DNA of 64,000 bases from IMG/VR virus record IMGVR_UViG_3300036790_000425, positions 1 through 64,000 of that record; one strand, 5' to 3'. Source of the DNA: a virus. The notes beneath the pieces were generated by a model, which did not search any database, was not told the origin of the DNA, and was given only the letters and a program-made list of their open reading frames with translations. How positions within the stretch are numbered: the first letter of the stretch is position 1; each line of letters begins with the position of its first letter. Positions 5,410 through 56,628 of the stretch are shown here, piece by piece. The position numbers were made by a program, and so were the translations under genes.

Positions 5410-5438
5410 TTGCTTGATACAGGTTTTCTTGCTAACTT
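5410..5438 (+). promoter_or_regulatory. Operator-promoter, copy 1
   Basis: -35 TTGCTT (5410-5415), a 17-base spacer GATACAGGTTTTCTTGC, and -10 TAACTT (5433-5438). The spacer and -10 carry the window-wide motif TACAG-N5-CTTGCTA. The predicted transcript starts near 5445 and has a leader of about 38 bases before GTG 5483. Confidence 0.8.
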
Positions 5439-5482
5439 GGGTCCCGGGCAAGGAAGCTGACTTTCCGAGGAGGACCCTGACC

Positions 5483-5914
5483 GTGACCGCGCTGATCGTG
5501 ACTATCCGGCTGAACACCGAGCCCGACGCGGTTATCCGTGGCTGGCTGCCGGGTGACGTGCTCTCGAAGGCGTGCGAGATCCGCTGGGGCCACCTGGGCC
5601 GCGACCTGCACGGCGGTGACCTCCGGCTGCATCTGCCCGGCCGGCTGACCTGGGACCTGACGGACCAGCTGCCCGAGCGGGTGGCGACCCGGGTGCTCAC
5701 GGTCATGTACTCCCCGCGCGAGGACGTCGCGGACTGGGAGTCCGGCCTGATCTGGCCCTGGCGCAACTCGGGCGGACGGCCGTTCATCACCGGGGACGTG
5801 ATGACCATCAGCTCCCCGGGGCCGTTCGAGAACGAGCACTGGGACCTGCTCCCGGTCAGCCTGGCCCGCCGGCAGGGCGGCTGGACCCGCATCGAGCTGA
5901 AGGACGAGAAATGA
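5483..5914 (+). CDS. Unknown protein, first gene of a small operon
   Basis: 143 residues from GTG 5483, chosen because GAGGAGGA lies nine bases upstream; a longer in-frame reading from TTG 5414 would begin inside the promoter. Mixed alpha/beta sequence with several Trp residues, starting MTALIVTIRLNTEPDA. It overlaps the next gene by four bases (ATGA) and leads the run of genes to 8645. Unrecognised family. Confidence 0.75.
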   Translation: MTALIVTIRLNTEPDAVIRGWLPGDVLSKACEIRWGHLGRDLHGGDLRLHLPGRLTWDLTDQLPERVATRVLTVMYSPREDVADWESGLIWPWRNSGGRPFITGDVMTISSPGPFENEHWDLLPVSLARRQGGWTRIELKDEK

Positions 5915-6207
5915 GCGAGCACGAGACCGTGGCCCTGAGCGAGATCTACGGCGAGAACGGCAAGTGGGCGAACCTGCTGGAGTCTCTCGGCTTCAAGGGC
6001 ATCCGGGTCCTGAGTGTCACGGAGAACCCATCGGGGCGCTGGGTGCACCTGGACCTGCCGAGGGACGGCACCGTCACCCTGGAGGACCTGCACCCTGCTA
6101 CCCGGCGCATCGAGGTCATGCTGCGGATGCGCCCGGGCGGGGCACGGTTCCGGACCCTGACTCACGCCGCCGACGTCCAGCTGGAGCTGAATGAGAGGCA
6201 GCGATGA
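5911..6207 (+). CDS. Small protein of unknown function
   Basis: 98 residues from ATG 5911, overlapping the previous stop by four bases and the next start by four. The N-terminal half (ETVALSEIYGENGKWANLLESLGFKG) looks like a helical pair and the rest alternates strands and helices. Part of the 5483-8645 operon. No family recognised. Confidence 0.7.
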   Translation: MSEHETVALSEIYGENGKWANLLESLGFKGIRVLSVTENPSGRWVHLDLPRDGTVTLEDLHPATRRIEVMLRMRPGGARFRTLTHAADVQLELNERQR

Positions 6208-6407
6208 TCCGCCTGCGGGTCGGGCCCGAGATGACCCGGGCGCACGCCTGGGCTGCCGTCTCGGTCCTCGGGTTCTTCCTGGTCGGCTTCATCTTCACGG
6301 TGGGGTTCGGGGCGATCCTGGACAGCCGCCTGATGCCGCTGGCCGGGCTGGGCGGCGGCGTCATGGCCGGCACCCTGCGCGGCCTGTGCCTGAGGCGGCA
6401 GCCATGA
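6204..6407 (+). CDS. Small two-segment membrane protein
   Basis: 67 residues with two hydrophobic stretches, AWAAVSVLGFFLVGFIFTVG and a Gly-rich LAGLGGGVMAGTL, and a basic C-terminus. Starts and ends with ATGA overlaps. A small inner-membrane protein of unknown role within the 5483-8645 operon. Confidence 0.7.
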   Translation: MIRLRVGPEMTRAHAWAAVSVLGFFLVGFIFTVGFGAILDSRLMPLAGLGGGVMAGTLRGLCLRRQP

Positions 6408-6758
6408 TTGACACCCTGTTCCTGACCGTGAGCAAGTACGCCATCGAGAAGATCCACAAGCGCGAGCCATCGTCCTGGCCGAAGGGCTGCGCCGTGGTCC
6501 GGGTGAACTTCGAGATCGAGCCGGGCGCGATCCGGATGCCGACCCCTGATGCAGAACGTGCGCGTGCGCGACTGGCGCGACGGGCTCAGCACGGACGGCA
6601 TGGACATCCCGGTCCGGTTCATCACCGAGGACAAGGCCGCCGATGCGATCACCGCGGTGCTGGTCCGGATGCACCAGATGCTGGAGCGTGCCGGCTACAC
6701 GGTCACCCCGCCGCCCGGCGGCGTGCTGGCGCTGACGGCAGGTGACCCCGGTGACTGA
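6404..6758 (+). pseudogene. Unknown gene split by an apparent +1 frameshift
   Basis: ATG 6404 opens a sensible protein (MIDTLFLTVSKYAIEKIHKR...) for about 48 codons. After the codons for MPT near 6540 the frame degrades into Arg/Ala-rich sequence and runs to 6745. From 6546 the +1 frame continues smoothly (LMQNVRVRDWRDGLSTDGMD...) to the stop at 6758. The joint sits at a run of four Cs (ACCCCTG). Together the halves make one plausible protein of about 117 residues. It may be a real mutation, a programmed +1 shift, or a sequencing or assembly error. Confidence 0.55.
6549..6758 (+). CDS. Second half of the frameshifted gene, readable alone
   Basis: ATG 6549 gives 69 residues (MQNVRVRDWRDG...) and overlaps the next start. 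No ribosome site is evident in front of it, which favours it being the continuation of the gene from 6404 rather than an independent gene. It includes VRMHQMLERAGY, loosely similar to VRMHAMLAQSAG in the protein at 26540-26782. Confidence 0.4.
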   Translation: MQNVRVRDWRDGLSTDGMDIPVRFITEDKAADAITAVLVRMHQMLERAGYTVTPPPGGVLALTAGDPGD

Positions 6759-7032
6759 CCACGAGGCCCCGCCGCTGCCCTGGCAGCTGGCCATGCACCT
6801 GATCAGCGCGCACTGCGACGGGATAGCGATCGGGCGCGACTGGGCCGGTAACGCCGACCAGCACAAGCACGAGCACGACGGCCCGGGCACCATCCGGGAT
6901 CACCCGCGCGGCTCGCTGCACTTCGACGCGGACGAGATCGAGGATGTCCTGGCCGGGATCGAGGAAGACCTGGCAGTCACCGGCCCCGGCCAGGCGATCA
7001 GCGGAGGGAAGCGGATCCTGTGCGGAACCTGA
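6751..7032 (+). CDS. Small acidic protein of unknown function
   Basis: 93 residues from GTG 6751, with GTG 6742 as an alternative start in the same frame. The centre is His/Asp-rich (DQHKHEHDGPG) and is followed by an acidic helix ADEIEDVLAGIEEDL. It overlaps both neighbours by a few bases. Unrecognised family. Confidence 0.6.
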   Translation: MTDHEAPPLPWQLAMHLISAHCDGIAIGRDWAGNADQHKHEHDGPGTIRDHPRGSLHFDADEIEDVLAGIEEDLAVTGPGQAISGGKRILCGT

Positions 7033-7619
7033 GTGACGAGCGGCTGACGGAGATCTGCCGGAGCGCGGCTGAGCTGATCGAGCGGCACGGCTTCACCCAG
7101 CACGACCGCGAGCGCACCGCGGGGCTGACCCTGGACAGCGCGCTGTGCGAGGCCACCCACCCGCTGGCAGCCAACCGGGACCCGGGCCAGCACCCGCCGG
7201 ACTGCGACGAGGCCACCGAGCGGCTGATGGGCTGGATGCTCGCGACCGGGGTGACGTACCTGCCCTACCGGGTGGACGCGGGCAACGTCGTGGCCGCCTG
7301 GAATGACGAGCGCCGCCGGACCGCCGATGAGGTCACCGCGCTGCTGCGCGGCTTCGCGGCCGTCCTGGGCGACCAGCTCGGGACCCTGATCCGCGAGTGC
7401 TGGAGCCAGTCGCAGCGTGACGTCGCGCAGTGCCGGGAGCGGCACAACCGCAAGGGCATCGACCTGATCTGCCAGCGGCTCCTGGGCCTGGCGCTCGCGC
7501 ACATGATGACCGCCGGGGTCCGGGGCCCGACGCACCTCACCGTGGTCATGCACGATGTCCACGACTACGCCAGGGACGTGCTCGGCATGGACCTGGACGG
7601 CCTGTGGCGAGGCCTGTGA
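7020..7619 (+). CDS. Helical protein of unknown function
   Basis: 199 residues from GTG 7020 with ribosome site GGAGGGAA. Largely alpha-helical; the first 60 residues (helix, then LCEATHPLAAN) recall uncharacterised actinobacterial phage proteins, but I cannot name the family. A second helical half contains several Cys and His residues without an obvious zinc-site spacing. Member of the 5483-8645 operon. Confidence 0.7.
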   Translation: MRNLSDERLTEICRSAAELIERHGFTQHDRERTAGLTLDSALCEATHPLAANRDPGQHPPDCDEATERLMGWMLATGVTYLPYRVDAGNVVAAWNDERRRTADEVTALLRGFAAVLGDQLGTLIRECWSQSQRDVAQCRERHNRKGIDLICQRLLGLALAHMMTAGVRGPTHLTVVMHDVHDYARDVLGMDLDGLWRGL

Positions 7620-7951
7620 TGACACGGCGGCACGACAACCCCGAGCCGTTCAGCAGGCTGCTGCTGGCCGGCAGCAGGCGGCACCTGACGCCGGAGGAGC
7701 GCACCGGTACCGAGTACGCCGTGACCACGATCCAGCGGAACCTGGACCGGCTGATGACCCAGCTGAGGTCCGGGCGGCCCCTGAAGCGCGGGACGGTCGC
7801 CTCGGTGCTGGACGTGACCCAGGGCGACGTCGAGCGGGCGCACGCCCGGCTGATGACAGCCGAGGTATCCGAGCGGCAGGCCGAGGCAGACGCTGCCCGG
7901 GCTGAGGACGAGCGGCGGCGGCGCGAGTGGCAGGAGAGGCACGGGTCATGA
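7619..7951 (+). CDS. Coiled-coil protein with possible helix-turn-helix
   Basis: 110 residues; ATG 7619 overlaps the previous stop (TGATG). Residues about 55-75 (GTVASVLDVTQGDVERAHARL) have the rhythm of a helix-turn-helix. The C-terminal 35 residues are highly charged and probably coiled coil (DAARAEDERRRREWQERH). DNA binding is a guess from this shape. Confidence 0.65.
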   Translation: MTRRHDNPEPFSRLLLAGSRRHLTPEERTGTEYAVTTIQRNLDRLMTQLRSGRPLKRGTVASVLDVTQGDVERAHARLMTAEVSERQAEADAARAEDERRRREWQERHGS

Positions 7952-8367: not shown

Positions 8368-8645
8368 TGAGTGACTACCAGACCCCGGGACAGGCCCTGG
8401 CCGGCGCGATCACCGAGGCCGACGTGCACCTGAGCAGGCCGGGGCCGGCGTCCATGCGCCTGACGGGGGCTGAGTTCGGCCGGCGGCACAGCGGTGACTG
8501 CCGCTTCTATTACGTGCTGACGTTCGGCATGACGATCACCAGCGGCCCGCCGGACATGCACCCGGACAGCACCTGGAAGGACCAGATCATGCGGGCCTGG
8601 GAGTGCCAGTACAAGGTGATCCCGCGGCCGGACACGACAGCCTGA
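8367..8645 (+). CDS. Small protein of unknown function
   Basis: 92 residues; ATG 8367 overlaps the previous stop. Mixed beta/alpha sequence with GDCRFYYVLTFGMTITSG. Last gene of the operon starting at 5483; a GC-rich hairpin follows at 8653. Confidence 0.65.
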   Translation: MSDYQTPGQALAGAITEADVHLSRPGPASMRLTGAEFGRRHSGDCRFYYVLTFGMTITSGPPDMHPDSTWKDQIMRAWECQYKVIPRPDTTA

Positions 8646-8652
8646 CAGACTC

Positions 8653-13212: not shown

Positions 13213-13437
13213 CTAACCCTTCCCCGGCCGGGGACCGAGCTGGTACCGGCCCGTGCCGTAGTGGCCGGCCCACTGCCAGGTCCGGATCTCGCCGCGGCGC
13301 TCCAGCCGGGCCAGGGCGGTTACCACGTGATCGCGGGACAGCCCGAGGGCATCCTGTACCTGGCGCCGGGTGAACTCGCCGCTGCCCAGCTCGCGCAGCC
13401 AGGCCAGCACGCTGGTCTCGCGGTCCTGTTCAGTCAC
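13213..13437 (-). CDS. Small winged-helix DNA-binding protein
   Basis: 74 residues from GTG 13437 with GGAGGCCCG in front. Helix (SVLAWLRELG), then FTRRQVQDALGLSRDHVVTA as helix-turn-helix, then ALARLERRGEIRTWQWAG as recognition and wing: a standard winged-helix fold. It sits immediately left of an operator copy at 13471 that can fire in both directions, so it is a candidate local regulator of that site. No experimental support. Confidence 0.7.
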   Translation of the reverse strand: MTEQDRETSVLAWLRELGSGEFTRRQVQDALGLSRDHVVTALARLERRGEIRTWQWAGHYGTGRYQLGPRPGKG

Positions 13438-13464: not shown

Positions 13465-13497
13465 TGGGTAGATACAGGTTTTCTTGCTATCGTTGAC
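13465..13497. promoter_or_regulatory. Operator-promoter, copy 2, bidirectional
   Basis: Plus strand: -35 TGGGTA (poor), spacer GATACAGGTTTTCTTGC, -10 TATCGT (13488-13493); the predicted start falls on GTG 13500, so the transcript would be leaderless. Minus strand: -35 GTCAAC (13492-13497), 17-base spacer, -10 TATCTA (13469-13474), serving 13437 leftward. One operator core TACAG-N5-CTTGCTA covers both. Confidence 0.7.
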
Positions 13498-17413: not shown

Positions 17414-17647
17414 TCAGCCCTCCCACATCAGGTCGCAGGCGGCCTGCGGGTCGTCATGGATCAGGCGGGCCAGCTCCTGGCTGGTGAGGCCCTTCGCCAT
17501 CGCGCCCTTCCACATCAGGCGAGGGCTGACGGCGCCGAGCAGGATCTGGGCGTTCCCGTCCAGAAGCCCGGCCATCAGCTCGGCATCGGTGCAGCGGCTG
17601 GCGCCGGTCTTGCGGCCGGAGGCCAGGGCCTCCTGATAGGCGCTCAT
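17414..17647 (-). CDS. Small helical protein
   Basis: 77 residues from ATG 17647 (ATGA overlap). Helical throughout, with CTDAELMAGLLDGNAQILLG and GLTSQELARLIHDDPQAACD; the latter has helix-turn-helix character. Unrecognised. Confidence 0.65.
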   Translation of the reverse strand: MSAYQEALASGRKTGASRCTDAELMAGLLDGNAQILLGAVSPRLMWKGAMAKGLTSQELARLIHDDPQAACDLMWEG

Positions 17648-18108
17648 GACGAGGCCACGGGCGGGTAGCAGGCTGAGCCGTGGATGTGCGACCCGGCGGC
17701 GGTGCACTCTGTCGGCTCCCGCTGGCCGGTCACAGGGGTAACCGGCACCTCGGTCAGCGAGTAGACCGCGTAGGTGGCGCGGCCGGGCAGCACGTCAGCA
17801 TCGGCGTTGCGGCGAGCCGCGACCTCGCGGGCGGTCTCCTCAGTAAGCGGGCGGCCCTCGTGATCGTAGGCACAGACATAGCCGTCGCGGGCATTCACGA
17901 CCATGTGAGTCGGCACGACCACGGGCGGGCGGGGCTGCCAGGTGCGGGCCCAGGCGCCCATGTCCTTCGAGCCCGAGGCGTAGAAGTCCTCCAGGAACTC
18001 ACCGACCAGGACCGAGGCCGCCTTGCTCTCCATCTGGCCGAAGCCGGGCCGCAGCTCCAGCAGCGCGGTGAACGCCACCGAGCGGTCGAGCGGGTTGCGC
18101 TGGGTCAT
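17644..18108 (-). CDS. Unknown protein, first gene of a leftward operon
   Basis: 154 residues from ATG 18108 with AGGAGAG eight bases upstream; in-frame sequence before that lies inside the promoter. Contains MVVNARDGYVCAYDHEGRPL and a Cys/His-containing C-terminus. It is the first gene after the operator-promoter at 18144 and begins the seamless chain of small genes to 14589. Confidence 0.7.
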   Translation of the reverse strand: MTQRNPLDRSVAFTALLELRPGFGQMESKAASVLVGEFLEDFYASGSKDMGAWARTWQPRPPVVVPTHMVVNARDGYVCAYDHEGRPLTEETAREVAARRNADADVLPGRATYAVYSLTEVPVTPVTGQREPTECTAAGSHIHGSACYPPVASS

Positions 18109-18143: not shown

Positions 18144-18172
18144 ACGATACAGGTTTTCTTGCTAATGTGCAA
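18144..18172 (-). promoter_or_regulatory. Operator-promoter, copy 3
   Basis: Minus strand: -35 TTGCAC (18167-18172), spacer ATTAGCAAGAAAACCTG, -10 TATCGT (18144-18149). The operator core is inverted relative to copy 1, but the promoter register is the same. Drives 18108 leftward with a short leader. Confidence 0.85.
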
Positions 18173-18577
18173 CTAGACGGCCGTGGCGTCATCCCGGCCG
18201 CAGCGGGCGCAGACCCGGACCGCGCTCAGCGCGAGGCAGCCGGAGAACTGGTGGCGCATGTCCAGGCCCGCGTCCAGCCACTGGTGCCGCCGCTGCTTCC
18301 TGGGCAGGTGCGTCAGCAGGCCGCAGGAGACCGTGTCACCGGGCGGCGGGATGAAGGCGCCCGGGTCCAGCCAGGGCACCAGTGCCTTAGCCAGCTGGCC
18401 GTCGAAGCGCGGCCCGGCCGCAGGGTCGAGCGCGTGATCGGCCATCCACCGCTGGTGCCGCCGGACAGCGTCCATGTCGCGCTCGGTGAAGCCCGAGTCC
18501 ACGTAGGCCCGGTAGGCCGCGCAGTCGTGCTGCTGCTGCCGCGTCCGCGGTCTCGCGGCTGGTTCCCTGACGGCCAC
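18173..18577 (-). CDS. Unknown protein with C-terminal CxxC
   Basis: 134 residues from GTG 18577 with GAGGAGC upstream, transcribed alone from the operator-promoter at 18602. Helical and Trp/His-rich (VRRHQRWMADHALDP), with ALSAVRVCARCGRDD at the end, a possible half zinc site together with the CG near residue 90. Stops one base before the next operator-promoter. Unrecognised. Confidence 0.65.
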   Translation of the reverse strand: MAVREPAARPRTRQQQHDCAAYRAYVDSGFTERDMDAVRRHQRWMADHALDPAAGPRFDGQLAKALVPWLDPGAFIPPPGDTVSCGLLTHLPRKQRRHQWLDAGLDMRHQFSGCLALSAVRVCARCGRDDATAV

Positions 18578-18601: not shown

Positions 18602-18630
18602 AGAATACAGGGTTTCTTGCTAAGGTGCAA
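18602..18630 (-). promoter_or_regulatory. Operator-promoter, copy 4
   Basis: Minus strand: -35 TTGCAC (18625-18630), spacer CTTAGCAAGAAACCCTG, -10 TATTCT (18602-18607). Lies exactly between two stop/start boundaries and drives GTG 18577. Confidence 0.85.
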
Positions 18631-21145: not shown

Positions 21146-21547
21146 TCAGCTCTCCTGTCCCCAGCGGCGGAACAGCTCGCCGGCGGGCTTGCCCCTCAGC
21201 ACGGTGATGCCCTTGATGCGCAGCAGGTCGGGCACGGACGCGGCGGGCACCTCGTAGTAGGCACCGCGCGGCCCGCGCTTGCCCCAGACGCCGTACTCGT
21301 AACCCGGGTCATCCACGGCCCGGCACAGCTTCTCGCGGCTGCGGTGCGAGGTGGTGGAGATCCACACGGTCGGCACGACCTCGGGCTGCCAGTCGCTGAA
21401 CGCGGCCCGGTAGCGGTCACGGACCTCGGTGGCCATCTCATAGGCCTGGCTCTCGCTCCGGCCGCCGTCGCGGAACCGGACGGCCAGCTCGGCGGTCAGC
21501 TGATCAGCTTCAGCGATCCCCGTGACCTTGATGCTGCGGGTCTTCAT
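21146..21547 (-). CDS. Unknown protein, first gene left of a divergent operator
   Basis: 133 residues from ATG 21547 (AGGAGG upstream). Alpha/beta sequence with a basic face (VWGKRGPRGAYYEVPAASVP). It and the secreted propeller form the leftward transcript from the operator-promoter at 21583. Unrecognised. Confidence 0.65.
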   Translation of the reverse strand: MKTRSIKVTGIAEADQLTAELAVRFRDGGRSESQAYEMATEVRDRYRAAFSDWQPEVVPTVWISTTSHRSREKLCRAVDDPGYEYGVWGKRGPRGAYYEVPAASVPDLLRIKGITVLRGKPAGELFRRWGQES

Positions 21548-21578: not shown

Positions 21579-21611
21579 TACCACATTACAGCATTCCTTG
21601 CTAAGCTGCAA
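21579..21611. promoter_or_regulatory. Operator-promoter, copy 5, at the divergence point
   Basis: Minus strand: -35 TTGCAG (21606-21611), spacer CTTAGCAAGGAATGCTG, -10 TAATGT (21583-21588), driving 21547 leftward. Plus strand reading gives -35 TACCAC (poor) and -10 TAAGCT (21602-21607) for GTG 21648. This is the switch point between the leftward and rightward blocks. Confidence 0.75.
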
Positions 21612-21647: not shown

Positions 21648-22184
21648 GTGAGCAACATCTGTAGCTACGCCGTCGATATCAAGGGCGCCGGCAGCATGGA
21701 GGCCATCAGGGCCGAGGCCATCGAGAAGGGAGCCAGGTTCTTCGGGGACACCCCGTTCAGGATCTGGAACATCTGGGCCGGCCCGGACATCGACGCCGAC
21801 CGGGCGCAGCCGGGCCGGGCGCAGTTCTACCGGGCTCACGTCAGCATGAGGACCACCCGGCCTGAGGCCGCCACGCCGGCTGACGATGACAGCACCGGCC
21901 GCTGGCTGGGCTTCACGGGCTACGGGAGCACGCCGCAGGAGGTCGAGGACGACATCATCCGCCAGGCCCGCAAGTTCTTCGGCCCGGATGTCACGCTGAA
22001 GGTCAGCCGGGGCTACGCATTCAGCACGGCCGCCAGCGTGTCAAGGCCGCTGCGCGCCACCACGACCGTGGCGATGGTCGAGCCCGGGTCCGTCATCGTC
22101 GGGCCTGCGGCGGCAGCAGGACGGGATAAGACCTTCATCGTCGGGCCTGCGGCGCCGCCGGCCGCCGGGCGGGAGAAGGCCTGA
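21648..22184 (+). CDS. Unknown protein, first gene of the rightward accessory region
   Basis: 178 residues from GTG 21648 with GAGGAGAGG upstream; earlier in-frame codons lie within the divergent promoter. Alpha/beta N-terminal 110 residues (YAVDIKGAGSMEAIRAEAIE) and a repetitive tail with two copies of a short motif ending VGPAA (VEPGSVIVGPAA and KTFIVGPAA). Unrecognised. Confidence 0.65.
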   Translation: MSNICSYAVDIKGAGSMEAIRAEAIEKGARFFGDTPFRIWNIWAGPDIDADRAQPGRAQFYRAHVSMRTTRPEAATPADDDSTGRWLGFTGYGSTPQEVEDDIIRQARKFFGPDVTLKVSRGYAFSTAASVSRPLRATTTVAMVEPGSVIVGPAAAAGRDKTFIVGPAAPPAAGREKA

Positions 22185-22187
22185 CGG

Positions 22188-22216
22188 TTGCTCATTAGCA
22201 AGAAAGCCTGTAGTCT
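22188..22216 (+). promoter_or_regulatory. Operator-promoter, copy 6
   Basis: -35 TTGCTC (22188-22193), spacer ATTAGCAAGAAAGCCTG, -10 TAGTCT (22211-22216). Overlaps nothing but the last bases after the previous stop. Predicted transcript start near 22223, directly before an in-frame GTG at 22224. Confidence 0.85.
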
Positions 22217-22238: not shown

Positions 22239-22472
22239 GTGAAGGCCTACATCCCGGCCCCGCAGTCGCGCGAGGTCATCCTGGCCGCGGTCGCGGCTGC
22301 GGGGCCGGAGGGCGCGACTGCGGGGCACATCCACGATGCGCTCGGCCGGGCCTGGATCACCAGCTGGCCCGACGTCACCGAGGGCATGATCCGCTACCTG
22401 GCCCGGGACGGGCAGCTGCGCGAGCAGCACGAGCTGAGTGAGGGTGAGCCCAGATGGGTGCTGAGCACATGA
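22239..22472 (+). CDS. Small winged-helix protein
   Basis: 77 residues from GTG 22239, preceded by AGAGGA; GTG 22224 in the same frame would be a leaderless alternative. Helix (REVILAAVAAAGPEGATAGH), IHDALGRAWITSWPDVTEGM as turn and recognition helix, then YLARDGQLREQH as wing: a winged-helix fold. It lies directly under an operator copy and is a candidate regulator of the operator family. Confidence 0.65.
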   Translation: MKAYIPAPQSREVILAAVAAAGPEGATAGHIHDALGRAWITSWPDVTEGMIRYLARDGQLREQHELSEGEPRWVLST

Positions 22473-28412: not shown

Positions 28413-28438
28413 CGCGATACAGCTTTTCTTGCTAAGGT
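28410..28438 (+). promoter_or_regulatory. Operator-promoter, copy 7 (leaderless class)
   Basis: -35 TAGCGC (poor), spacer GATACAGCTTTTCTTGC, -10 TAAGGT (28433-28438). The predicted start falls on ATG 28445, seven bases after the -10. Confidence 0.75.
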
Positions 28439-28444: not shown

Positions 28445-28681
28445 ATGAGCGAAACGGTCCCCGCCGAGAGCCTGAAGCCCCGCGATGTCATCCTGGTCAG
28501 CCACAAGGGGCGCGACGTCCGCGTCACCATCCTGCGCGACCAGGAAGCCTGCACCGAGCAGGTCGGCCCGCTGGCGGGCGATCCCCGCATCCGGTTCTGG
28601 GCCCGCCGGGAGGACACCGGCCGGGAGGCCTGGATGATCTACGGCCCGGGCGGCGTCGTCCGGCTGGACGAGCGCGCATGA
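28445..28681 (+). CDS. Small beta-rich protein read from a leaderless start
   Basis: 78 residues from ATG 28445 with no ribosome site and no room for a leader after the -10 box. Strand-rich (KPRDVILVSHKGRDVRVTIL). It overlaps the methyltransferase gene (ATGA) and so is co-transcribed with it. Could be a partner or regulator of the methyltransferase; unrecognised. Confidence 0.65.
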   Translation: MSETVPAESLKPRDVILVSHKGRDVRVTILRDQEACTEQVGPLAGDPRIRFWARREDTGREAWMIYGPGGVVRLDERA

Positions 28682-30161: not shown

Positions 30162-30190
30162 TTGCTCATTACAGCTTTCCTTGCTAAGAT
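30162..30190 (+). promoter_or_regulatory. Operator-promoter, copy 8
   Basis: -35 TTGCTC (30162-30167), spacer ATTACAGCTTTCCTTGC, -10 TAAGAT (30185-30190). It begins one base after the previous stop. The leader contains GTCTTGCAAGGGAACGAC. Confidence 0.87.
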
Positions 30191-30227
30191 GGGTCTTGCA
30201 AGGGAACGACGAGCCAGGAGGCGCAAG

Positions 30228-30803
30228 ATGGGATCAGTCTTCACGCACCGCGAGCGTGGCATGAGCACCCGGGACTTCTTCCAGCGCGAGCTGAGGGATG
30301 ACATCGAGATCCTGGCCAGCGCTGTGATGGACAGCGTCTTCTACGCGGCAGTCCGGGGTGAGCGCGTCAAGGGCGAGATCACCACGTGGGCCCTGGCTTA
30401 CCCGATCTACCGCGCCAGGGGCTACCACAACTTCGGCTACAAGTGGCAGGACGAGTTCGACGGCCCGAACGCCATCACGGCCCCGGCCCGGGTGCTGGAC
30501 AGGCTAAGCCCGCTGCCCGTGTGCACGCACGGCGACGAGGTGAGCTACTGCGGCACCTGCTCCGCCCGCGACTGGCGGAAGTCCTGCCGGGCGCACGCCG
30601 GGCGCAAGGCCGCAGCTGAGAGCACGCAGGCCGGCACCGTCATCCGCCTGGCCGTCGCGGTCGAGTTCCGCAACGGCCACAAGGGCACCGACTTCGAGCT
30701 GCTCGACACCGTCAAGGGCCACGTCCGCGGCACCGACGGCCGCGTCTACAGCCTCGGCCGCGAGTGGTTCTACCGCGCCTTCGAGATCGTCCCGGCAGCC
30801 TGA
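30228..30803 (+). CDS. Unknown protein with Cys/His cluster
   Basis: 191 residues from ATG 30228 (AGGAGG upstream); sequence in frame before it is promoter and leader. Helical N-terminal half, then CTHGDEVSYCGTCSARDWRK near residue 103 as a probable zinc site, then a beta-rich end (IRLAVAVEFRNGHKGTDFEL). Single-gene transcript between an operator-promoter and a strong hairpin. Unrecognised family. Confidence 0.7.
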   Translation: MGSVFTHRERGMSTRDFFQRELRDDIEILASAVMDSVFYAAVRGERVKGEITTWALAYPIYRARGYHNFGYKWQDEFDGPNAITAPARVLDRLSPLPVCTHGDEVSYCGTCSARDWRKSCRAHAGRKAAAESTQAGTVIRLAVAVEFRNGHKGTDFELLDTVKGHVRGTDGRVYSLGREWFYRAFEIVPAA

Positions 30804-30844: not shown

Positions 30845-30873
30845 TTGCGCATTAGCAAGAAACCCTGTAATGT
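30845..30873 (+). promoter_or_regulatory. Operator-promoter, copy 9
   Basis: -35 TTGCGC (30845-30850), spacer ATTAGCAAGAAACCCTG, -10 TAATGT (30868-30873). Operator inverted relative to copy 11, which has the same -35 and -10. Leader GGTCTTGCAGGAGAACGACA. Confidence 0.9.
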
Positions 30874-30908
30874 AGGTCTTGCAGGAGAACGACAGCGAGG
30901 AGGCCGGG

Positions 30909-31166
30909 ATGGACGAGCACCAGATCCGCACCGCGGACGAGCAGGACTCCCTGGACCGCGCGGTGGCCCGGTGCCCCCACGGCCGCCAGGACCGCGGTCA
31001 CCGCGTGGCCCGCGGCAGCTTCGACTGGCACTACGAGACCTGCACGGCGTGCGGCGGCGAGCGCCCCGAGCACGACGATGACGACAACTGCGGCATCTGC
31101 CAGGCCCGCGATGCGGGCACCGGCCCGGGACACGGCTGGGCCCCGGCCCCGGAGCAGGTCGCCTGA
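30909..31166 (+). CDS. Small Cys/His-rich protein
   Basis: 85 residues from ATG 30909 (GAGGAGG upstream). CPHGRQDRGHRVARGSFDWH, CTACGGERPEHDDDDN and CGICQARD give a likely two-zinc knuckle protein with an acidic centre. Unrecognised. Confidence 0.65.
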   Translation: MDEHQIRTADEQDSLDRAVARCPHGRQDRGHRVARGSFDWHYETCTACGGERPEHDDDDNCGICQARDAGTGPGHGWAPAPEQVA

Positions 31167-46461: not shown

Positions 46462-46857
46462 CTACACGCTAGCGGGCGGCGGCTTCTCCTGGCCATATGC
46501 CCGGGCCCGGCCGGCGGCCTCGAACACGCTGGTGGTGCCGTCCGCGGGGATCTCCAGCTCCCAGACCGCGGCCAGCGCGGCGGTCAGCTCGATCCGGGCC
46601 TGCTTAGCGGCGGCCGTCAGCACGCTCATCACCTGCTCGTACACCGGGCCCGCCTCGAATGGGCCGATCCCGGTCAGGGCCTTCCGGATGCGCTCCGCGG
46701 CCTCGATATCGCTGACATGCCCGCGGATCCGGTCATCCGCCATCCAGGTGCGCGGGTCAGGGATCTCCCGCTCAATCTCGGTCTCCTCCGGAGCCTGGTC
46801 CTGGTCGGTTTCCCGGGGGTCCAGGGCATCCGCCTCCGGCTCATCAGCGAGCGGCAA
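46462..46857 (-). CDS. Acidic helical protein
   Basis: 131 residues from TTG 46857 with GGGAGGAGAG in front, overlapping the end of the glycosylase gene. Very acidic N-terminal 35 residues (EADALDPRETDQDQAPEETE), helical remainder (VMSVLTAAAKQARIELTAAL). Co-transcribed with the glycosylase. Function unknown; acidic partners of uracil glycosylases exist in phages, but no similarity is claimed. Confidence 0.6.
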   Translation of the reverse strand: MPLADEPEADALDPRETDQDQAPEETEIEREIPDPRTWMADDRIRGHVSDIEAAERIRKALTGIGPFEAGPVYEQVMSVLTAAAKQARIELTAALAAVWELEIPADGTTSVFEAAGRARAYGQEKPPPASV

Positions 46858-47476
46858 CGCGCTCTCCTCCCAGGACCGAGGCCAGCGCCGCCGTGGTCTC
46901 GGCCTCCATCATGGCCAGGTCCGCCGGCCGCCTCTCCCGCAGCAACGCGGCTGGGTGCCAGATGCTCAGCATCATGGCCGCCGCCGCCGGGCAGCAGTCC
47001 GGAGCCCAGCGCATCCACTTCCCGCGGGCGTTCGGGAAGGTGCCGTTCCGCTGGCTGGTCAGGGCCTGGAAGGCGACCGCGCCGGCGGCGATGACCACCA
47101 CCGGGCTGATCAGGGCGACCTCCGCCTGGATCCGCGGGGCTGAGGCGACGATCTCGTAGATGTAGGGCGTCCGGTTGTGCGGCGGGCGCCAGGGCACGAC
47201 GTTGGCGACATAGCACTGGTCCCAGGCGATCCCGGCGTCCCCGGTCAGGGCCCGCAGCCGCTTCCCGGCCGCTCCGGTGAACGGCTCGCCGGCGCGCTCC
47301 TCGTCCTCGCCGGGGGCCTCTCCGACGATCACCAGCGGCGCCGTTACCGGACCGTGACCAGAGATCAGCCGCCGTCCGCTGCGGGCCAGCGGGGACATCA
47401 CGGGATGGTCGGCGTACTCCTGGTACAGGCGCGCGATCGCGGCCTGGCGCCCGTCCGGCTGGCCGGCCTCAGTCAT
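46844..47476 (-). CDS. Uracil-DNA glycosylase superfamily protein
   Basis: 210 residues from ATG 47476 (GGGAGG upstream; the longer frame covers the leader). Motif VIVGEAPGEDEERAGEPFTG near residues 49-68 is the active-site loop of family 4/5-type uracil-DNA glycosylases, and SIWHPAALLRE near 173 is the second, leucine-loop motif. The four iron-sulfur cysteines of family 4 are not present in the expected places (only CY and CC pairs), so iron-sulfur binding is doubtful. It should remove uracil from DNA. Transcribed from an operator-promoter with a structured leader. Confidence 0.82.
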   Translation of the reverse strand: MTEAGQPDGRQAAIARLYQEYADHPVMSPLARSGRRLISGHGPVTAPLVIVGEAPGEDEERAGEPFTGAAGKRLRALTGDAGIAWDQCYVANVVPWRPPHNRTPYIYEIVASAPRIQAEVALISPVVVIAAGAVAFQALTSQRNGTFPNARGKWMRWAPDCCPAAAAMMLSIWHPAALLRERRPADLAMMEAETTAALASVLGGERVAAR

Positions 47477-47618: not shown

Positions 47619-47647
47619 AGACTAATACAGGTTTTCTTGCTAGTCAA
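47619..47647 (-). promoter_or_regulatory. Operator-promoter, copy 14
   Basis: Minus strand: -35 TTGACT (47642-47647), 17-base spacer, -10 TAGTCT (47619-47624). The operator core TAGCAAG-N5-CTGTA lies at 47626-47642, three bases shifted from the usual register (an aligned alternative -10 would be TATTAG). Overlaps the stop codon of the gene to the right. Confidence 0.78.
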
Positions 47648-50452: not shown

Positions 50453-51877
50453 GCCACCAGTTCGAGGTGTTCCCGGATATAGGCCACCGTCAGCTCGAAC
50501 AGCACCGGATCGTCCCCGAGATTCCGTACTCGGAAGTTGCATCCCACGCACAGCAGCTTGCGCTTCTTGCCCGTGACGTGGTTGTGGTCCACGCACAGGC
50601 TGATCCGATCCGAAGCCCCTGCCTCGATCGGGCAGATCGCACACTTGCCGCCCTGGGCGGCCAGCATCTCCTCGTACTCCTCGATGGTGATGCCGTAGGT
50701 CCGCTTCAGGTAGACGTTGCGCACGTACCTGGCCCTGCCACCCTTGCGCTCCATCATCCGGGCCTGAGCCGCAGCCTGGTGAATCGTCGCGCACGGCGGG
50801 CAGTAGCTCCCCCTGAACGTGGCGCGGGTGCCCTCCGTCCCGCATGTGGCGCACCACCTCGGGGTCTGGTCGGTCCGGTACCGCTTCATGCGCTCGACCT
50901 GCTGAGTGCTGCGGCACTTCTTGCACACGCCCCGGAAGTAGCCCTTCGGTCCGGCCTTCTTGCCGGGCGGAGTCCAATCGAAATGATCCTGGTCCTGCGG
51001 CTTGGTCTCGTGGCAGCGAGTGCAGGTCTTGGTGTCCATAGCCACTAATGTTACCCGGAGAAACATTGCCGGGGCCGGACGCGCCGGGCTCAGAGAAGAC
51101 GAGTTTCCTGATCTTCTCCAAAATCCTATCAGGACTATAGGAAAGCCATTTCTCGATCAGGTTGCCAGCGTCCTGCCAGCCGTCGCCCTCGTCACTGAAG
51201 GCCCGGCGGCGCTCAGCGTGCAGCCGCTCCCACAGGGCCCTGGCCTGCCGGGTGCGGGCGGGCTCGGCCTGGCGCAGGATGGCCCGGGCCTCGGTGGCCA
51301 CGGCACGGGCCTGGGACAGGATCGCGGGATCGAAATCGGCGGCCGAGTGCGCCGGCAGGTGCGGCGGCCGGACCGCCCACTTCGAGTCGCTGAGATCCCA
51401 GGCCGCGTAGGGCTTGATCCGCCGGATATCCCAGGCACCCGGGTTGACGTAGCCGGTCAGGTCAAAGTGACCGCCGCAGTCCGGGTGCCAGTCCGGGTCG
51501 TTGAAGTGCCTGCGCAGGACATCATTCAGCGCCGCGTCAATCGCGGCATCACCCTTCTTCGGCCAGCCGACTGCACGGTTCCAGTTCCAGGCCTCGTAAT
51601 CCACGCCGATCAGGATGTCCAGGTCCGTGGCCGCGTCGTTGGGACGGCCGCCGGCCCACTCGCTGGCGCTGCCGCCGGCCAGGTAGACCTTCAGGTACTC
51701 TTGCCACTCCGAGCCAGTCAGGCCGCCGTCTACGCGCAGCGCCCGGTCCAGCCGCTCCATGATGTCGTGGCGCACGGCCGGGCGCAGCTCGTGACGGCTG
51801 TTGAACAGCACCGGGTCAAGCCCGCTGGTCGGCCCGAAAATGCCGCTGGACGGCAGGTACCGGGCTGCCTCGGTCAC
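48842..51877 (-). CDS. Continuous frame: nucleotidyltransferase-like + Nudix + 2H phosphoesterase, interrupted by HNH
   Basis: GTG 51877 overlaps the ART-array stop (GTGA). The frame is open for 1,011 codons. Residues 1-275: nucleotidyltransferase-like (LAGGSASEW... DLDILIGVDYEAW). Residues about 280-475 are Pro/Gly/Arg-rich and coincide with the HNH gene in another frame, so they look like a shadow. From ATG 50452: a complete Nudix box (GARGKDESPEDGALREF then REEMGA), then a 2H phosphoesterase with both HxT motifs (EPHITVVYL, RPHVTLAYL), then a domain with GTWHDHESGNVFLDISHNV and NNQ-like NQIAIWDL, ending with a CERCG knuckle. Either two genes around an inserted HNH gene, or one former gene. 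Confidence 0.6.
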   Translation of the reverse strand: MTEAARYLPSSGIFGPTSGLDPVLFNSRHELRPAVRHDIMERLDRALRVDGGLTGSEWQEYLKVYLAGGSASEWAGGRPNDAATDLDILIGVDYEAWNWNRAVGWPKKGDAAIDAALNDVLRRHFNDPDWHPDCGGHFDLTGYVNPGAWDIRRIKPYAAWDLSDSKWAVRPPHLPAHSAADFDPAILSQARAVATEARAILRQAEPARTRQARALWERLHAERRRAFSDEGDGWQDAGNLIEKWLSYSPDRILEKIRKLVFSEPGASGPGNVSPGNISGYGHQDLHSLPRDQAAGPGSFRLDSARQEGRTEGLLPGRVQEVPQHSAGRAHEAVPDRPDPEVVRHMRDGGHPRHVQGELLPAVRDDSPGCGSGPDDGAQGWQGQVRAQRLPEADLRHHHRGVRGDAGRPGRQVCDLPDRGRGFGSDQPVRGPQPRHGQEAQAAVRGMQLPSTESRGRSGAVRADGGLYPGTPRTGGMTGYNEIRPSAVRVASGSDGDRMVTCSKGHEHWGAYGAAGLLMRHKGEDGQVRYLLQKRSPAVDHPDTWSIPSGARGKDESPEDGALREFREEMGALPRGTSHRSTTVSTDCGDWKFHTVSYDSPELFTPRGRGETDHEIAGAGWFAPREVKHLDLHPAFAKSWDNVRKSASVRRDHSSAGGVSLDVQEQESTKLEPREGVAGYDVAPRSGMIYLPIPEGLIERVPGGVDDEPHITVVYLGKGLSDEAFGTAMQRAAEAGARSKPLHGVLRGTGTFPPSEASDGKTPVFVPAYVPGISQLRRELEDLSASEHQDYRPHVTLAYLEDGDPVPPSHPARQVSFTHLHVKRGDQVVRFPLGAGIRTEARSREPTSSFRDMHRIIDRTHRNGGHSVSLTSGRSPSGGYMVAQQEGSHFLPAHEFFGPQGHHVLRSYIQGHASHFAQPGAHLGTWHDHESGNVFLDISHNVHGLEGATRMAQHHNQIAIWDLKNKQEIPTGGTGGLDKVAAADSCERCGLPAAKVSATMEFLRRGGQDTLE
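50449..51039 (-). CDS. HNH endonuclease, endonuclease VII-like, nested between domains
   Basis: 196 residues from ATG 51039 (an earlier ATG at 51066 is in frame). Three zinc knuckles (CTRCHETKPQ, CKKCRS, CATCG... CPPC), then the nuclease core typical of recombination endonuclease VII-like HNH proteins: MLAAQGGKCAICPIEAG, LCVDHNHVTGKKRKLLCVGC, NFRVRNLGDDP. The DHNH and CxxC...CxxCN residues are present. Such free-standing enzymes often act as homing endonucleases in phages. It lies in a different frame from the surrounding continuous frame, and AT-rich sequence flanks its upstream edge (51105-51160). Confidence 0.87.
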   Translation of the reverse strand: MDTKTCTRCHETKPQDQDHFDWTPPGKKAGPKGYFRGVCKKCRSTQQVERMKRYRTDQTPRWCATCGTEGTRATFRGSYCPPCATIHQAAAQARMMERKGGRARYVRNVYLKRTYGITIEEYEEMLAAQGGKCAICPIEAGASDRISLCVDHNHVTGKKRKLLCVGCNFRVRNLGDDPVLFELTVAYIREHLELVA

Positions 51878-54800
51878 GCCGTCAGCGCCTTGCGCTCGGG
51901 TTCGGTCCACGCACCTTCCGTGCTGCGCAGGATCTCTGCTGCCTCGTCCGCGGTGCCGGCCAGGTGACCGGACATCTGCCGCAGCAGGTCCGGCATGCTC
52001 TCCGCGAGCGGCAGGTGCTCGCACCTGGCCGCCAGCGTCCCCAGGGCGGCCGACACGATCCGCAGGGCGCCGGGTACCTCGTGCAGCATGGACACGACAT
52101 CCTCGGCGCTCTGGGGCTGGTAGGACGCGATCCGCATCGGCATGTCCCGCAGCGCCCGGGCGACCGACACCGGCTGCGCCTTCTCAGGCAGACTCGCCGC
52201 GGCGGCAGCCTCGTGCACCTGGTGGATGAAGCTGGCCGGCAGGGGCTCGCGCAGCGCGTGCACGGTGCCCTCCGTGGCCTCCCGTGGCTCGCTGAGGTAG
52301 CGCGAGACCTGGTCCCGGGGCACGTGGATCTCCACGACGCGCGGGCTCGTCCAGTCCCGCTGCCCGGCGATCAGGGCGGCGCCGTCCCGGCTGGTGGTCA
52401 CCGTGGGCTGGTCCGGGGACTGGGCCGGACGCAGGCCGCCGGACTGGATGCCGGCGGTGTCGTCGTGGTGCGCGCCGTGGTAAAGCACGTAGGGATCAGC
52501 GGGCTGACCCAGTGCGGCCTCATGATCGCCCCAGCCCTCGTCCTCCTCGTCATACCGGGACTCGATGTGCTCCGGGACCGGCATCTCGCGGTGCACGCCG
52601 AACCCGGTCCGGCTGCGCACGTCGCCTGGGTTCACCCGGCGCGAGTTTCCTCCCTCGTCATGAGTCGGGTCCTTCTCGACGTCGTCGGCATGCGGGGTGA
52701 CCTCGAAAACCCTGGGCCGGCCGCCGTGCGCCTCCGCCGCGCGCTCGGCGTAGTCCCAGGCGCTGCCCGGGTCCGCCGTGGCGAAAGCGTGCGTGCCGTC
52801 GTGATCCTGCGGGAAGTTCCGCCGCCCGCTGCCCTGCGGGGTGATCTGATCCGGATCGCCGCTGTCGTTCGTGCCGTGGTAGTAGGGTCCCCGGGCCGGC
52901 TCACCGCGCTTGCCCCGGTCCAGGGCATCCATGTCCCGGCGGAAATTGCGATCATGCTCGCCCTCGCTGGCGTCGAACATGCCGTAGCAGTGCTGGCACA
53001 CAGCCGGGCTCCGGCCGCCGCCCTCGCCGTGGTCACCCGGGCCAGGCGGCCGGAACCGGCGGCTGCCGCAGTCCGGGCAGGCGGCATCCTCGTGCGGGAC
53101 GGCCGGCTCCAGCGCGGCGGTGCGCTTCTGCTTCTCCAGGGCGCGCAGGCCCTTCCGGTAGGGCTCGTAGACGGAATCCGTCTCGTCGTTCACCCAGCTG
53201 TAGCTCTCCGGGCCGTTCCGGTCGTCGCGCATGTAGCGGGCGGAGCCGTGCCAGGGCTCGTGCACGGCCAGCATCTGCCGGGGGTGCACGTCACCGCGCA
53301 TGATCACGTGGTGGTGGCCCTCGCCCCACTCCCTCAGCTTGCCCTGGTCGTAGCTGCCGTCCTTATTGCGGGCATGCCAGGGTGACTCGGCGTTGCCGGA
53401 GATCTCATCCGGGTGGGCGTGGTACTCCACGACAGCCGCATGCCCTGAGTGATCATCCAGGATGTCGTCCGGGCGCTTAGTGGAGGCCCACACGCCGGCC
53501 GACGGGTCATCCAGGTTGTGGTCCCCGGCATCGCCCCGGGCGCGGCTGCGCTGGAGTCCGTGCTGCCGGATCGAGTCCACGTTGTCCAGCGGGGTGTAGT
53601 GCCAGAGCCGGACGCGCCCGGCCGGGATCTCGGCGGTGCCGGGATCGGCCGGCAGCTCATCTCGGCTGTGCAAGGCGCCCTCCTTCGGGATGCCGACGTC
53701 GGTATAGTTCACCGTGCCGTGCTGACCTGGCCGGTGGCTGACCGGGACGTGGCGGTCCACCGGATGCCACGTCCAGCCCGGCGGGTTGTGCTCGGGGTGC
53801 AGGGGGTGCACCGTGCCCTCCTTGCCGGGCTCGCCCACCCAGGCCCCCTCCACGTGCACCGAGGAGCCGGGGTGCAGCCGGACCTCCGCCTCCGACGGCA
53901 GCGACTCGTGCCTGCCGCGCCACATCGGGTGCGAGCGGGAGATGGCCTGGGACTCCGGGTGCTCCAGCCGGGACTGCCACACCACCGGCCGGGTGCTCGG
54001 GCCGCCCCGTTCGGGGCCGGTGATAACGCCCTCCGGCTTCGCGCTCCAGTGCATGCCGAGCGAGCGGGTGCCGGAGATGTCCTCGCCGGCCGGGCGGCGC
54101 TCGCCGCGCCACAGCCGCAGGCCCGGCTCGGGCCTGCTGGCCACGTCCAGCATCTTCCTGCTGTAATCCCGGTCATCGGCAGCCGCCAGGCCCTCGCGCT
54201 GGGAGTCGATCATCGGCGGCAGGTGGCTCAGGTCCGGCGGCCGGTGCGGGCTCAGGCCGCTGCCGGGGAAGTCCCGGGACAGGCCGCGCCCGTGCCGGTC
54301 GTTGGCTACCTGGATCTTGGCATCGGTGTAGTGACGGCGGGCCAGCGCCGCGGCGTCCTCATGCCCGGCACCGTCCAGGGCCAGGGCGTAGTGCCAGGTG
54401 AAGCCCCGGCCGTGGCGCCGCTCGTCCGGGTCCTTGTCGCTCGGCCGCGGGTGCCTGTCCCAGGACTCCCGGGGCCGGGCCTCCTCCAGCGCCTGCCGCT
54501 TATCGGTCATGACGTGCGCGGCATGATGAGCCAGCTCATGGATGCTGCCGTGCTCCGGGGCCACGGCGGAGTCGATGTCCTCGCGCGGCATGAAGAAGCT
54601 GGCCTGACCGAGCATCTTCCGCAGCGTGCCGGTGCGGTCCTCCGGAGCCTGGCCCAGGTGCGGGTGCTCCTGGCTGACTTTCGCCTCGACGGCGGCGTGC
54701 ACTGCGCGGTTGGGCTCGGCAGCGACGTGATCAGCCACAGCGGTGCGGCGGACCCGGGGGAGCGGGATCTGGCTGCGCGTGGCCGCGTACCCCTCCGCTG

Positions 54801-56559
54801 AGGCGTGCCACTTGTCGTCCGGGTGATAGTCGATCTCCAGGGTGTGACCGCGCACGCCCGTCTCGCCCTGGTGGCGCCAGCGCTCATCCGGGGCAGCCGA
54901 GGCCCGGGTGTAGCCGCCGCGTGACTGGAGGTACCCGTTGTGCTGGGCGTCATCCCATTCACCCGGATCAGCAACCCGGTAGAGCTTGCTGACCGGCTTG
55001 CCGCTCAGAGTCAGGCCGCCCTCCGGATGCTGCTCGATCCGGCCGCCGTATAGCTCCCCGGGCGAGGGGAGGATGCTCCCGGGCCGGGGCAGCGCAGGCC
55101 CTGAGAGCGCCCGGGAGAGACGCTCCTCGGACTCCCTCCTCTGGCTGTCGTCAGCGGCTGCTGCGACGTGCTCACCGCTCTCGGCCTCGAAGTGCGCCAC
55201 GACGGCCGCCTGATGCTCGCCGCTGACGAAGTGCTCCGGCTTCAGGTCCGAGGCGCGGACGGTGTAGAACTTCTCCGTGCCGCCGCCGAACGAGTCGTTC
55301 TCGGTGGCCAGGTGCCGGGGCACCCGGACATGCACGGCCTCCGGACCGTAGCCGCCGCCGTAGAAGCCGTGCGGGACGTCCGAGAAGAACACCGGGCCCT
55401 GCTTGCCGTGCTGGTCGATCATCCGGCGCTGGCTGCGGATCGCGGCGGCGTTCTCCGGCGTGGTGTGGTGGTACAGGTCCACCTGATCAGCGGCACCCTC
55501 GTGGCGCGTCGGCTCATCATCGTCGTCGCGGTGCATCTCCTGGCACTCCGGGCAGTTGCGGGGCTGGTCGCTCTCGCGCGAGGTGTCGGCCACCACGCCC
55601 TCCATCGAGGACTTGCCCGTCAGCCGGGCCCGGGCATACCGGTGGTGGCCGTCAAGCAGGTAGGTCCTGCCCTCATGGCGGACGAACCGGGCCGGCTCCT
55701 CGTCGTAGGGGCGCCCCGTCTCGTGCTCGTAGCGGTCCACGAGCTGCTTATCGTGCATCGTGTCGGCGTGCACGAAGGGCTGGTGAACGTGGATCTGCTG
55801 CCTCAGCGAGACGCGCTCAGGAGCCATGTGACGCCAGTGGTCCTCCTGCTGGTCCAGGTCGTCCGGCCAGCCGTGGTGCTCCAGCCGGGGGATCTCGTGC
55901 GGCTCGACGTGCGGGCCCCAGGAGTGCGGGAAGTGCACCACGCCGTTCTCGTCAGCGCGGCGGTTCACCCAGTCGCTGATCCGGTCCTCGCGGCGCTCCC
56001 GGGCGGCAGGGGAGGCAGTCTCGTAGCCAGCCCCGAAATGGTCCATGAGACCGCCGGTCACCTCGCGGATCACCCGGAGCGGGTGCTCGCTGTAGTGGCT
56101 CCGGGGATTCCACCGGTCCGGCTTGTGCTCGCCGGTCGGCTCGACCTCGAACACCCGGGCGTGCTCCGGCGGCCTGCCCTGCTCGCGCGCCGCCTGGCTG
56201 GCAACGTCCCGGGCCCAGCCCGGGCTCTCAGTGAAGAAGGTCTCCTCGCTCGGGCCCTCCCAGCCGCGGTCCAGGGCGCGGGGCATCCCCGTGGTCACCA
56301 TGTCGTCAGGCTGGAACGGGTGCGTGGTGCCGTGATAGAAACGCGGCCCGGTACCGGCCTCGAAATGCTCCAGGACGCCGGAGCGCCAGTGCTTGCGGCG
56401 GGGCTGGGGCTGGCCGGGGCAGTGCGGGTCGCGGGCGCCCTTATCGGTGGTGCCGGTGCCGCCGCAGCGCCCGCAGGACGAGCCGTCGCCGTGCTCGCCC
56501 GTGCCGCCGCAGCAGGAGCAGGACTCCTGGCCCCGGCCGGGGCGGGCGGCGGCGCTCAT
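51874..56559 (-). CDS. Giant protein with about seven ADP-ribosyltransferase-like modules
   Basis: 1,561 residues from ATG 56559 (leaderless from copy 15); a form 23 residues longer starts at ATG 56628 with AGGAGG. Residues 13-36: two CxxCGGTG knuckles, DnaJ-like. ART-like modules: 1 at about 73-166 (FYHGTTH, FFTESPGWARD, RVFEVEPTGEH), 2 at 358-443 (LYHHTTPEN), 3 at 525-600 (LYRVADPGEW), 4 at 813-890 (LWRGERRP, SEAEVRLHPGS), 5 at 986-1100 (LWHYTPLDN, VIMRGDVHPRQML), 6 at 1226-1315 (YYHGTNDSGD, HAFATADPGSAWDYAE, RVFEVTPHAD), 7 at 1358-1420 (LYHGAHHDD, VVEIHVPRDQV). Modules 1 and 6 are closest to the Arr (rifampin ART) type. A ParB-like part (LLDGHHRYARA, about 246-325), an HELAHH at about 671, and a zinc ribbon (CPDCGSRRF, CQHCYGMF) near 1160-1195. 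Likely delivered or expressed to modify host targets with NAD; inferred. Confidence 0.75.
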   Translation of the reverse strand: MSAAARPGRGQESCSCCGGTGEHGDGSSCGRCGGTGTTDKGARDPHCPGQPQPRRKHWRSGVLEHFEAGTGPRFYHGTTHPFQPDDMVTTGMPRALDRGWEGPSEETFFTESPGWARDVASQAAREQGRPPEHARVFEVEPTGEHKPDRWNPRSHYSEHPLRVIREVTGGLMDHFGAGYETASPAARERREDRISDWVNRRADENGVVHFPHSWGPHVEPHEIPRLEHHGWPDDLDQQEDHWRHMAPERVSLRQQIHVHQPFVHADTMHDKQLVDRYEHETGRPYDEEPARFVRHEGRTYLLDGHHRYARARLTGKSSMEGVVADTSRESDQPRNCPECQEMHRDDDDEPTRHEGAADQVDLYHHTTPENAAAIRSQRRMIDQHGKQGPVFFSDVPHGFYGGGYGPEAVHVRVPRHLATENDSFGGGTEKFYTVRASDLKPEHFVSGEHQAAVVAHFEAESGEHVAAAADDSQRRESEERLSRALSGPALPRPGSILPSPGELYGGRIEQHPEGGLTLSGKPVSKLYRVADPGEWDDAQHNGYLQSRGGYTRASAAPDERWRHQGETGVRGHTLEIDYHPDDKWHASAEGYAATRSQIPLPRVRRTAVADHVAAEPNRAVHAAVEAKVSQEHPHLGQAPEDRTGTLRKMLGQASFFMPREDIDSAVAPEHGSIHELAHHAAHVMTDKRQALEEARPRESWDRHPRPSDKDPDERRHGRGFTWHYALALDGAGHEDAAALARRHYTDAKIQVANDRHGRGLSRDFPGSGLSPHRPPDLSHLPPMIDSQREGLAAADDRDYSRKMLDVASRPEPGLRLWRGERRPAGEDISGTRSLGMHWSAKPEGVITGPERGGPSTRPVVWQSRLEHPESQAISRSHPMWRGRHESLPSEAEVRLHPGSSVHVEGAWVGEPGKEGTVHPLHPEHNPPGWTWHPVDRHVPVSHRPGQHGTVNYTDVGIPKEGALHSRDELPADPGTAEIPAGRVRLWHYTPLDNVDSIRQHGLQRSRARGDAGDHNLDDPSAGVWASTKRPDDILDDHSGHAAVVEYHAHPDEISGNAESPWHARNKDGSYDQGKLREWGEGHHHVIMRGDVHPRQMLAVHEPWHGSARYMRDDRNGPESYSWVNDETDSVYEPYRKGLRALEKQKRTAALEPAVPHEDAACPDCGSRRFRPPGPGDHGEGGGRSPAVCQHCYGMFDASEGEHDRNFRRDMDALDRGKRGEPARGPYYHGTNDSGDPDQITPQGSGRRNFPQDHDGTHAFATADPGSAWDYAERAAEAHGGRPRVFEVTPHADDVEKDPTHDEGGNSRRVNPGDVRSRTGFGVHREMPVPEHIESRYDEEDEGWGDHEAALGQPADPYVLYHGAHHDDTAGIQSGGLRPAQSPDQPTVTTSRDGAALIAGQRDWTSPRVVEIHVPRDQVSRYLSEPREATEGTVHALREPLPASFIHQVHEAAAAASLPEKAQPVSVARALRDMPMRIASYQPQSAEDVVSMLHEVPGALRIVSAALGTLAARCEHLPLAESMPDLLRQMSGHLAGTADEAAEILRSTEGAWTEPERKALTA

Positions 56560-56628
56560 GCCCCTTACATTAGCAAGGTTTCCTGTAACAGGCGAGAGCG
56601 GAGCGAAGTGCGCCAGCAGCGGGTCCAT
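56560..56628 (-). other. Alternative 5' extension of the ART-array gene
   Basis: ATG 56628 is preceded by AGGAGGCAACTC, a strong ribosome site, and adds 23 residues (MDPLLAHFAPLSPVTGNLAN...) in frame with ATG 56559. There is no room for a promoter between the terminator at 56659-56688 and this start, so it would be used on read-through messages from the terminase side. Confidence 0.6.
56567..56595 (-). promoter_or_regulatory. Operator-promoter, copy 15, inside the 5' end of the ART-array gene
   Basis: Minus strand: -35 TCGCCT (poor), spacer GTTACAGGAAACCTTGC, -10 TAATGT (56567-56572). The predicted start falls on ATG 56559, seven bases on, giving a leaderless message. The site lies within codons 12-21 of the longer reading frame from ATG 56628. 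Confidence 0.75.

Follow-up and report, generated by a model that had tools for sequence, protein, structure and literature searches.

A multi-copy operator fused to the spacers of host-type promoters in a Bxz1/Myrna-like myophage from soil

We analyzed a window of 64,000 nucleotides, positions 1 to 64,000 of a virus record of 162,435 bases (~162 kb; IMG/VR IMGVR_UViG_3300036790_000425). The 17-base pattern TACAG-N5-CTTGCTA lies close to gene starts throughout this window, read either forward or in reverse relative to the neighboring promoter. Its copies and the associated features are as follows, with positions in the window unless the record is named:

5418..5434, + strand: operator, forward, upstream of gene 5483-5914
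13213-13437, - strand: MarR-like gene, on the other side of the operator that follows
13473..13489, + strand: operator in a divergent intergenic region, with the forward start at a distance of 10 nt (leaderless type)
18148..18164, + strand: operator, reverse; a TTGCAC-N17-TATCGT promoter drives 17644-18108 (-)
18606..18622, + strand: operator, reverse, drives 18173-18577 (-)
21587..21603, + strand: operator flanked by the divergent genes 21146-21547 (-) and 21648-22184 (+), with promoter-like elements in both directions
22196..22212, - strand: operator, reverse, drives 22239-22472 (+)
28418..28434, + strand: forward operator before gene 28445-28681, whose start lies 10 nt off (leaderless type), without a TTG -35
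30170..30186, + strand: operator, forward, drives 30228-30803
30853..30869, - strand: operator, reverse; TTGCGC-N17-TAATGT drives 30909-31166 (+)
33168..33184, - strand: operator, reverse; TTGCAC-N17-TAATGT drives 33227-33556 (+)
34284..34300, + strand: operator, forward; TTGCGC-N17-TAATGT drives 34342-35178
37008..37024, - strand: operator, reverse, gene 37057-37329 (+), weak -35
38175..38191, + strand: operator, forward, drives 38234-38437
46844..47476, - strand: uracil-DNA glycosylase gene (match to Pfam UDG at E 4.7e-26), with the operator that follows upstream of it
47626..47642, + strand: operator, reverse, shifted register, upstream of the uracil-DNA glycosylase
56571..56587, - strand: forward operator before gene 51874-56559 (-), whose start lies 11 nt off (leaderless type), without a TTG -35 at spacer 16-18
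30187-30227, 30870-30908, 33185-33226 and 34301-34341: predicted leaders with a conserved start, roughly GGTCTTGCAAGGGAACGAC
60792-61382, - strand: candidate regulator of 196 aa with a CxxC and a helix-turn-helix-like N-terminus
record 118528-118890 and 137631-137843: Lsr2-like and DUF397 proteins, both typical of actinobacterial hosts
record 141703-141906 (L012:17706-17906), - strand: BldC-like protein of 67 aa, outside the window

All 15 copies claimed by the initial annotation, whose coordinates belong to a longer site starting 2-4 bases ahead of the 17-mer, are present in the window with zero mismatches, and 100 dinucleotide-preserving shuffles gave 0. Since a tolerance of two mismatches gains just two further sites, the motif is nearly all-or-none. 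The whole record holds 20 exact copies where none is expected by chance, and 0 copies of a control pattern, the motif read backwards. Frequent copies inside genes, named at the outset as evidence against an operator, were not seen: 0/20 fall within genes called by our own simple script, which makes ~87% of the record coding, and the probability of this is near 1e-18 if placement is random relative to genes.

The source phage, a soil myophage, is Bxz1/Myrna-like. With 59% identity to the capsids of Myrna, Phabba, HyRo, Skog and Stormageddon, its major capsid protein places the phage near Ceeclamvirinae and related Gordonia phages. In IMG/VR, close relatives (capsid at least 94% identical) carry the motif; it is absent from the long records tested with capsids of at most 92% identity and from the four isolate genomes checked. 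From 13 related records, some of which may be fragments, we collected 160 distinct sites, which are not independent of one another where their phages are related: 78 drive genes forward and 42 in reverse; of the others, 16 separate divergent genes, 19 lack a close start and 5 fall in called genes. Two Streptomyces assemblies (sp. A0642 and MH60; L473 and L474) contain standalone contigs, 153 and 157 kb long, whose capsid genes are 78-79% identical, which could represent extrachromosomal carriage, active infection or contamination. These contigs, together with the BldC-like, DUF397 and Lsr2-like proteins of the phage, suggest that the host is probably a Streptomyces-like actinobacterium. The phages also encode a DivIVA-like protein (L010:2281-3012, - strand) and a DUF2637 membrane protein (L009:18853-19983, - strand); in a mycelial host these might act on the transfer of DNA or on growth at the poles.

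The initial annotation had the motif filling the spacer and -10 of promoters with 17-base spacing. This holds in substance and was incomplete in three respects: about one-third of clearly oriented sites are reversed relative to the promoter, spacers range from 16 to 18 bases, and the 47626 site is out of register. The -10 element (TAnnnT) takes its TA from either end of the motif. Its sixth base is T at 78/78 forward sites when read forward, versus 9/78 read in reverse; at the 42 reverse sites the preference is inverted (38/42 in reverse versus 11/42 forward). Similarly, TTG occurs at spacer 16-18 at 42/78 forward sites versus 1 in the control direction, and at 26/42 reverse sites versus 2. 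A full TTG-N16-18-TAnnnT promoter overlaps the motif at 95/160 sites compared with 2.4 expected from shuffled flanks, an enrichment of about 40-fold, and an exact TTG -35 is missing at the other 65. Only four registers account for these overlaps: F15 (57), R15 (30), R18 (6) and F18 (2).

All six R18 cases are the uracil glycosylase site; the Pfam match confirms the identity given to this gene at the outset. In the window the promoter at this site reads TTGACT-AGCAAGAAAACCTGTAT-TAGTCT, and in each of six phages the motif is intact but both promoter elements, -35 and -10, sit three bases out of place. That motif and promoter shift relative to each other indicates that the motif is not purely promoter sequence.

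Coverage of host-type promoters in the source phage is almost complete. It has 16 TTG[AC]-N16-18-TAnnnT promoters within 45 bases of a start; 14 of these carry the operator and a fifteenth holds a form with one mismatch. All 7 such promoters near starts in G002 contain it; in G008, where the left half of the motif is more degenerate, the exact operator is found in 0/2. Start codons cluster either 10-11 or 34-49 bases from the motif. The shorter distance, which implies leaderless transcripts, occurs at 13473, 28418 and 56571 in the window, at record positions 79867 and 80881, and at 24/78 forward sites across the family. Predicted leaders begin roughly with GGTCTTGCAAGGGAACGAC, conserved after several promoters and with both operator orientations.

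The operator also differs by clade. At nearly all sites in G006, G007, G010 and G039/G015, position 15 has changed from C to A (CTTGCTA to CTTGATA); G014 has A and G at this position, and G013 all four bases. Phylogeny of the portal, cement and capsid proteins groups the phages with the changed operator in one clade with G013 basal, pointing to one event and not many. In this A-type clade and in G013, the bldC-like gene has an operator copy at its 3' end, without a clear promoter. Sister phages show the same placement with other sequences. G019 has TACAAGGTTCCTTGATA-type sites and G027 a perfect palindrome, CTACAAGGATCCTTGTAG. The motif of G033 (CTCCAACAATCCTTGGAG) overlaps the TTG-N16-18-TAnnnT spacer at 16/21 sites, that of Gordonia phage Stormageddon (TACACGTGTGTA; operator TACAC-N2-GTGTA) at 9/12 and that of Mycobacterium phage Myrna (TTCTAG-N2-TGCTA) at 7/8. 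These sister-clade spacer motifs are more palindromic than TACAG-N5-CTTGCTA, which, on the simplest reading, would be the lopsided descendant of an ancestral dyad read by a dimer. In another sister, G025 (L399-L406), sixteen TCACCCCTTCACAGG...GACAGG copies lie close upstream of genes, a kind unlike the spacer operators.

Together, these data strongly support TACAG-N5-CTTGCTA as an operator, and they also support the earlier proposals that a DNA-binding protein constrains the spacer and that the motif defines a genome-wide phage regulon. We infer that a phage protein binds the site and that its effect is repression. Our preferred model, which we regard as likely on sequence grounds, is that a phage-encoded, probably dimeric protein occludes host-sigma promoters, serving as both repressor and timing switch. 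In actinobacteria, a host-type -35 and -10 spaced as usual by 17-18 bases should be active without further help. In TTG-N16-18-TAnnnT promoters the operator, in either orientation, overlaps both the spacer and the first two bases (TA) of the -10, such that the bound protein would cover the promoter and keep RNA polymerase off; with the protein absent or released, these near-consensus promoters would fire together. One protein could in this way time or hold down nearly all phage transcription units that depend on the host polymerase, from accessory and replication genes to the uracil glycosylase. Such timing could mean an early shut-off, a delay or a latent state.

Its strong conservation and proximity to gene starts would also suit a promoter read one way by a phage polymerase or sigma factor. 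One-third of the clearly oriented sites, however, drive opposite genes with their own -35 and -10, and the displacement at the uracil glycosylase preserves the motif and not its position in the promoter. On these grounds of orientation and register shift we reject a phage polymerase promoter and consider this class of explanation very improbable. The use of host-type promoter elements could instead mean that the phage adopted a host operator together with a host-encoded binding protein. Against this, the motif occurs only at chance level in two Streptomyces genomes that carry related phages, and one operator base has changed across a whole phage clade, so a host protein seems improbable. Least probable of all is that the sites are stoperator-like road-blocks or nucleoid or partition sites whose overlap with promoters is secondary; some sites, such as the copies ending the bldC-like gene, lack a promoter in both directions, but the excess of promoter overlap, its fixed registers and the mixed orientation relative to transcription argue otherwise.

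Another reading is an activator, for instance of MerR/BldC-like type, which would recruit polymerase to operator promoters or reshape it there. A BldC-like protein (4e-25 to BldC structure 6AMA and very close to Streptomyces BldC) is encoded by G000, G002, G007, G008, G039 and G019 and by several partial genomes, including 5/5 fully read motif-bearing genomes searched, and in the A-type clade it has a two-residue insertion adjoining the reported DNA-contact region of BldC. Because the operator change is one event, this correlation counts as a single observation. The BldC-like (HTH_17) protein was absent in searches of G025 and G033, the latter having a related dyad operator, and is present in many phages that lack TACAG-N5-CTTGCTA, which weakens it as the sole regulator. 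MerR operators likewise lie between the -35 and -10, but MerR promoters have spacers of 19-20 bases and BldC binds AATT-type direct repeats (PMC5859096). Here TTG peaks at spacer 16-18, and the invariant operator bases are dyad-like without AATT repeats; inspection found no AATT(N3-4)C/G direct repeats ~9 bp apart, which excludes binding only weakly given how loose that consensus is. Occlusion is favored over activation because orientation is indifferent and the spacers are near the optimal 17, needing no realignment by an activator. We therefore consider an activator unlikely, and it would have to be one tolerant of both orientations. The G008 BldC-like protein (record 141411-141587) is almost identical to Streptomyces BldC, which suggests a recent capture from the host.

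Which protein would act as the repressor is a separate matter. The three winged-helix proteins initially put forward as binders are poorly conserved across motif-bearing phages and do not hold up as master regulators: 22239-22472 occurs in the source phage only, 22469-23056 in the source phage and two relatives only, and the small MarR-like protein at 13213-13437 (-), missing from several motif-bearing genomes, is an unlikely choice. The CxxC/HTH protein at 60792-61382 is found in every fully read relative, including those with other operators, and we retain it as a candidate because a common regulator is expected to be present whichever operator is used. Its predicted structure is of moderate quality (pLDDT 78, pTM 0.62) and had no match among solved structures. 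A nearby gene gives only very weak terminase matches, and the CxxC/HTH protein may instead be the terminase's small subunit. When 120 further small phage proteins were scanned against Pfam, only BldC-like, Lsr2-like and weak HTH matches emerged, and no L5-type repressor was among the matches of general Pfam scans of small proteins. On this basis we assign the CxxC/HTH protein a tentative minority share as putative regulator and the BldC-like protein a slightly smaller one, with the rest going to a protein of unrecognized kind.

In the literature we found, little is said on how Bxz1/Myrna-like phages control transcription, and spacer-operator promoters are not reported in this group; most subscription journals were beyond reach. 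Multi-site phage operators are known; what is new here is that one is fused to the spacers of nearly all promoters of host type, that sister phages share this trait with different sequences, and that an operator base has changed clade-wide. A single operator on almost all such promoters predicts which genes form the regulon and where transcripts start, and makes the switch testable, and the clade-wise change offers a natural series in which to follow the co-change of a regulator and its many sites. Lysogeny, the usual reason for a phage-wide repressor, is not evident, as none of the eight records searched has an integrase or resolvase domain. A speculative possibility, which we hold to be doubtful, is that a widespread, integrase-free family of large actinobacterial myophages uses a genome-wide repressor switch with clade-drifting specificity as an immunity or latency system, persisting extrachromosomally and excluding relatives. 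The standalone Streptomyces contigs would fit latency; contamination or active infection could also account for them. If true, such a system would change the view of these 'lytic' phages.

Among known systems, the nearest in logic are the C1 operators of phage P1 and the repressor sites of phiC31, in which one repressor acts at many operators overlapping promoters genome-wide. Their sequences differ, both phages are temperate, and to our knowledge fixed placement within a 17-base spacer is no rule there. Corndog and other cluster O mycobacteriophages likewise have a 17-bp multi-copy repeat, a dyad present in more than 30 copies, but eleven of the Corndog copies fall inside genes and most have no promoter nearby, and the authors judged a transcriptional role unlikely (PMC4351075); in the phages described here the promoter link is strong. 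The likeness to L5 stoperators suggested by the initial annotation extends to the many copies of one short site: L5 and Bxb1 of cluster A have 20-30 such sites across an actinophage genome, bound by one phage repressor, with a sequence that drifts between subclusters (PMC6550527). Stoperators, however, lie mostly away from promoters and are oriented with transcription, and they are 13-14 bp sequences without dyad symmetry that are bound by a monomer (PMC6550527). The operator described here departs from that pattern, with most sites in promoters, use in both orientations and a dyad in its relatives.
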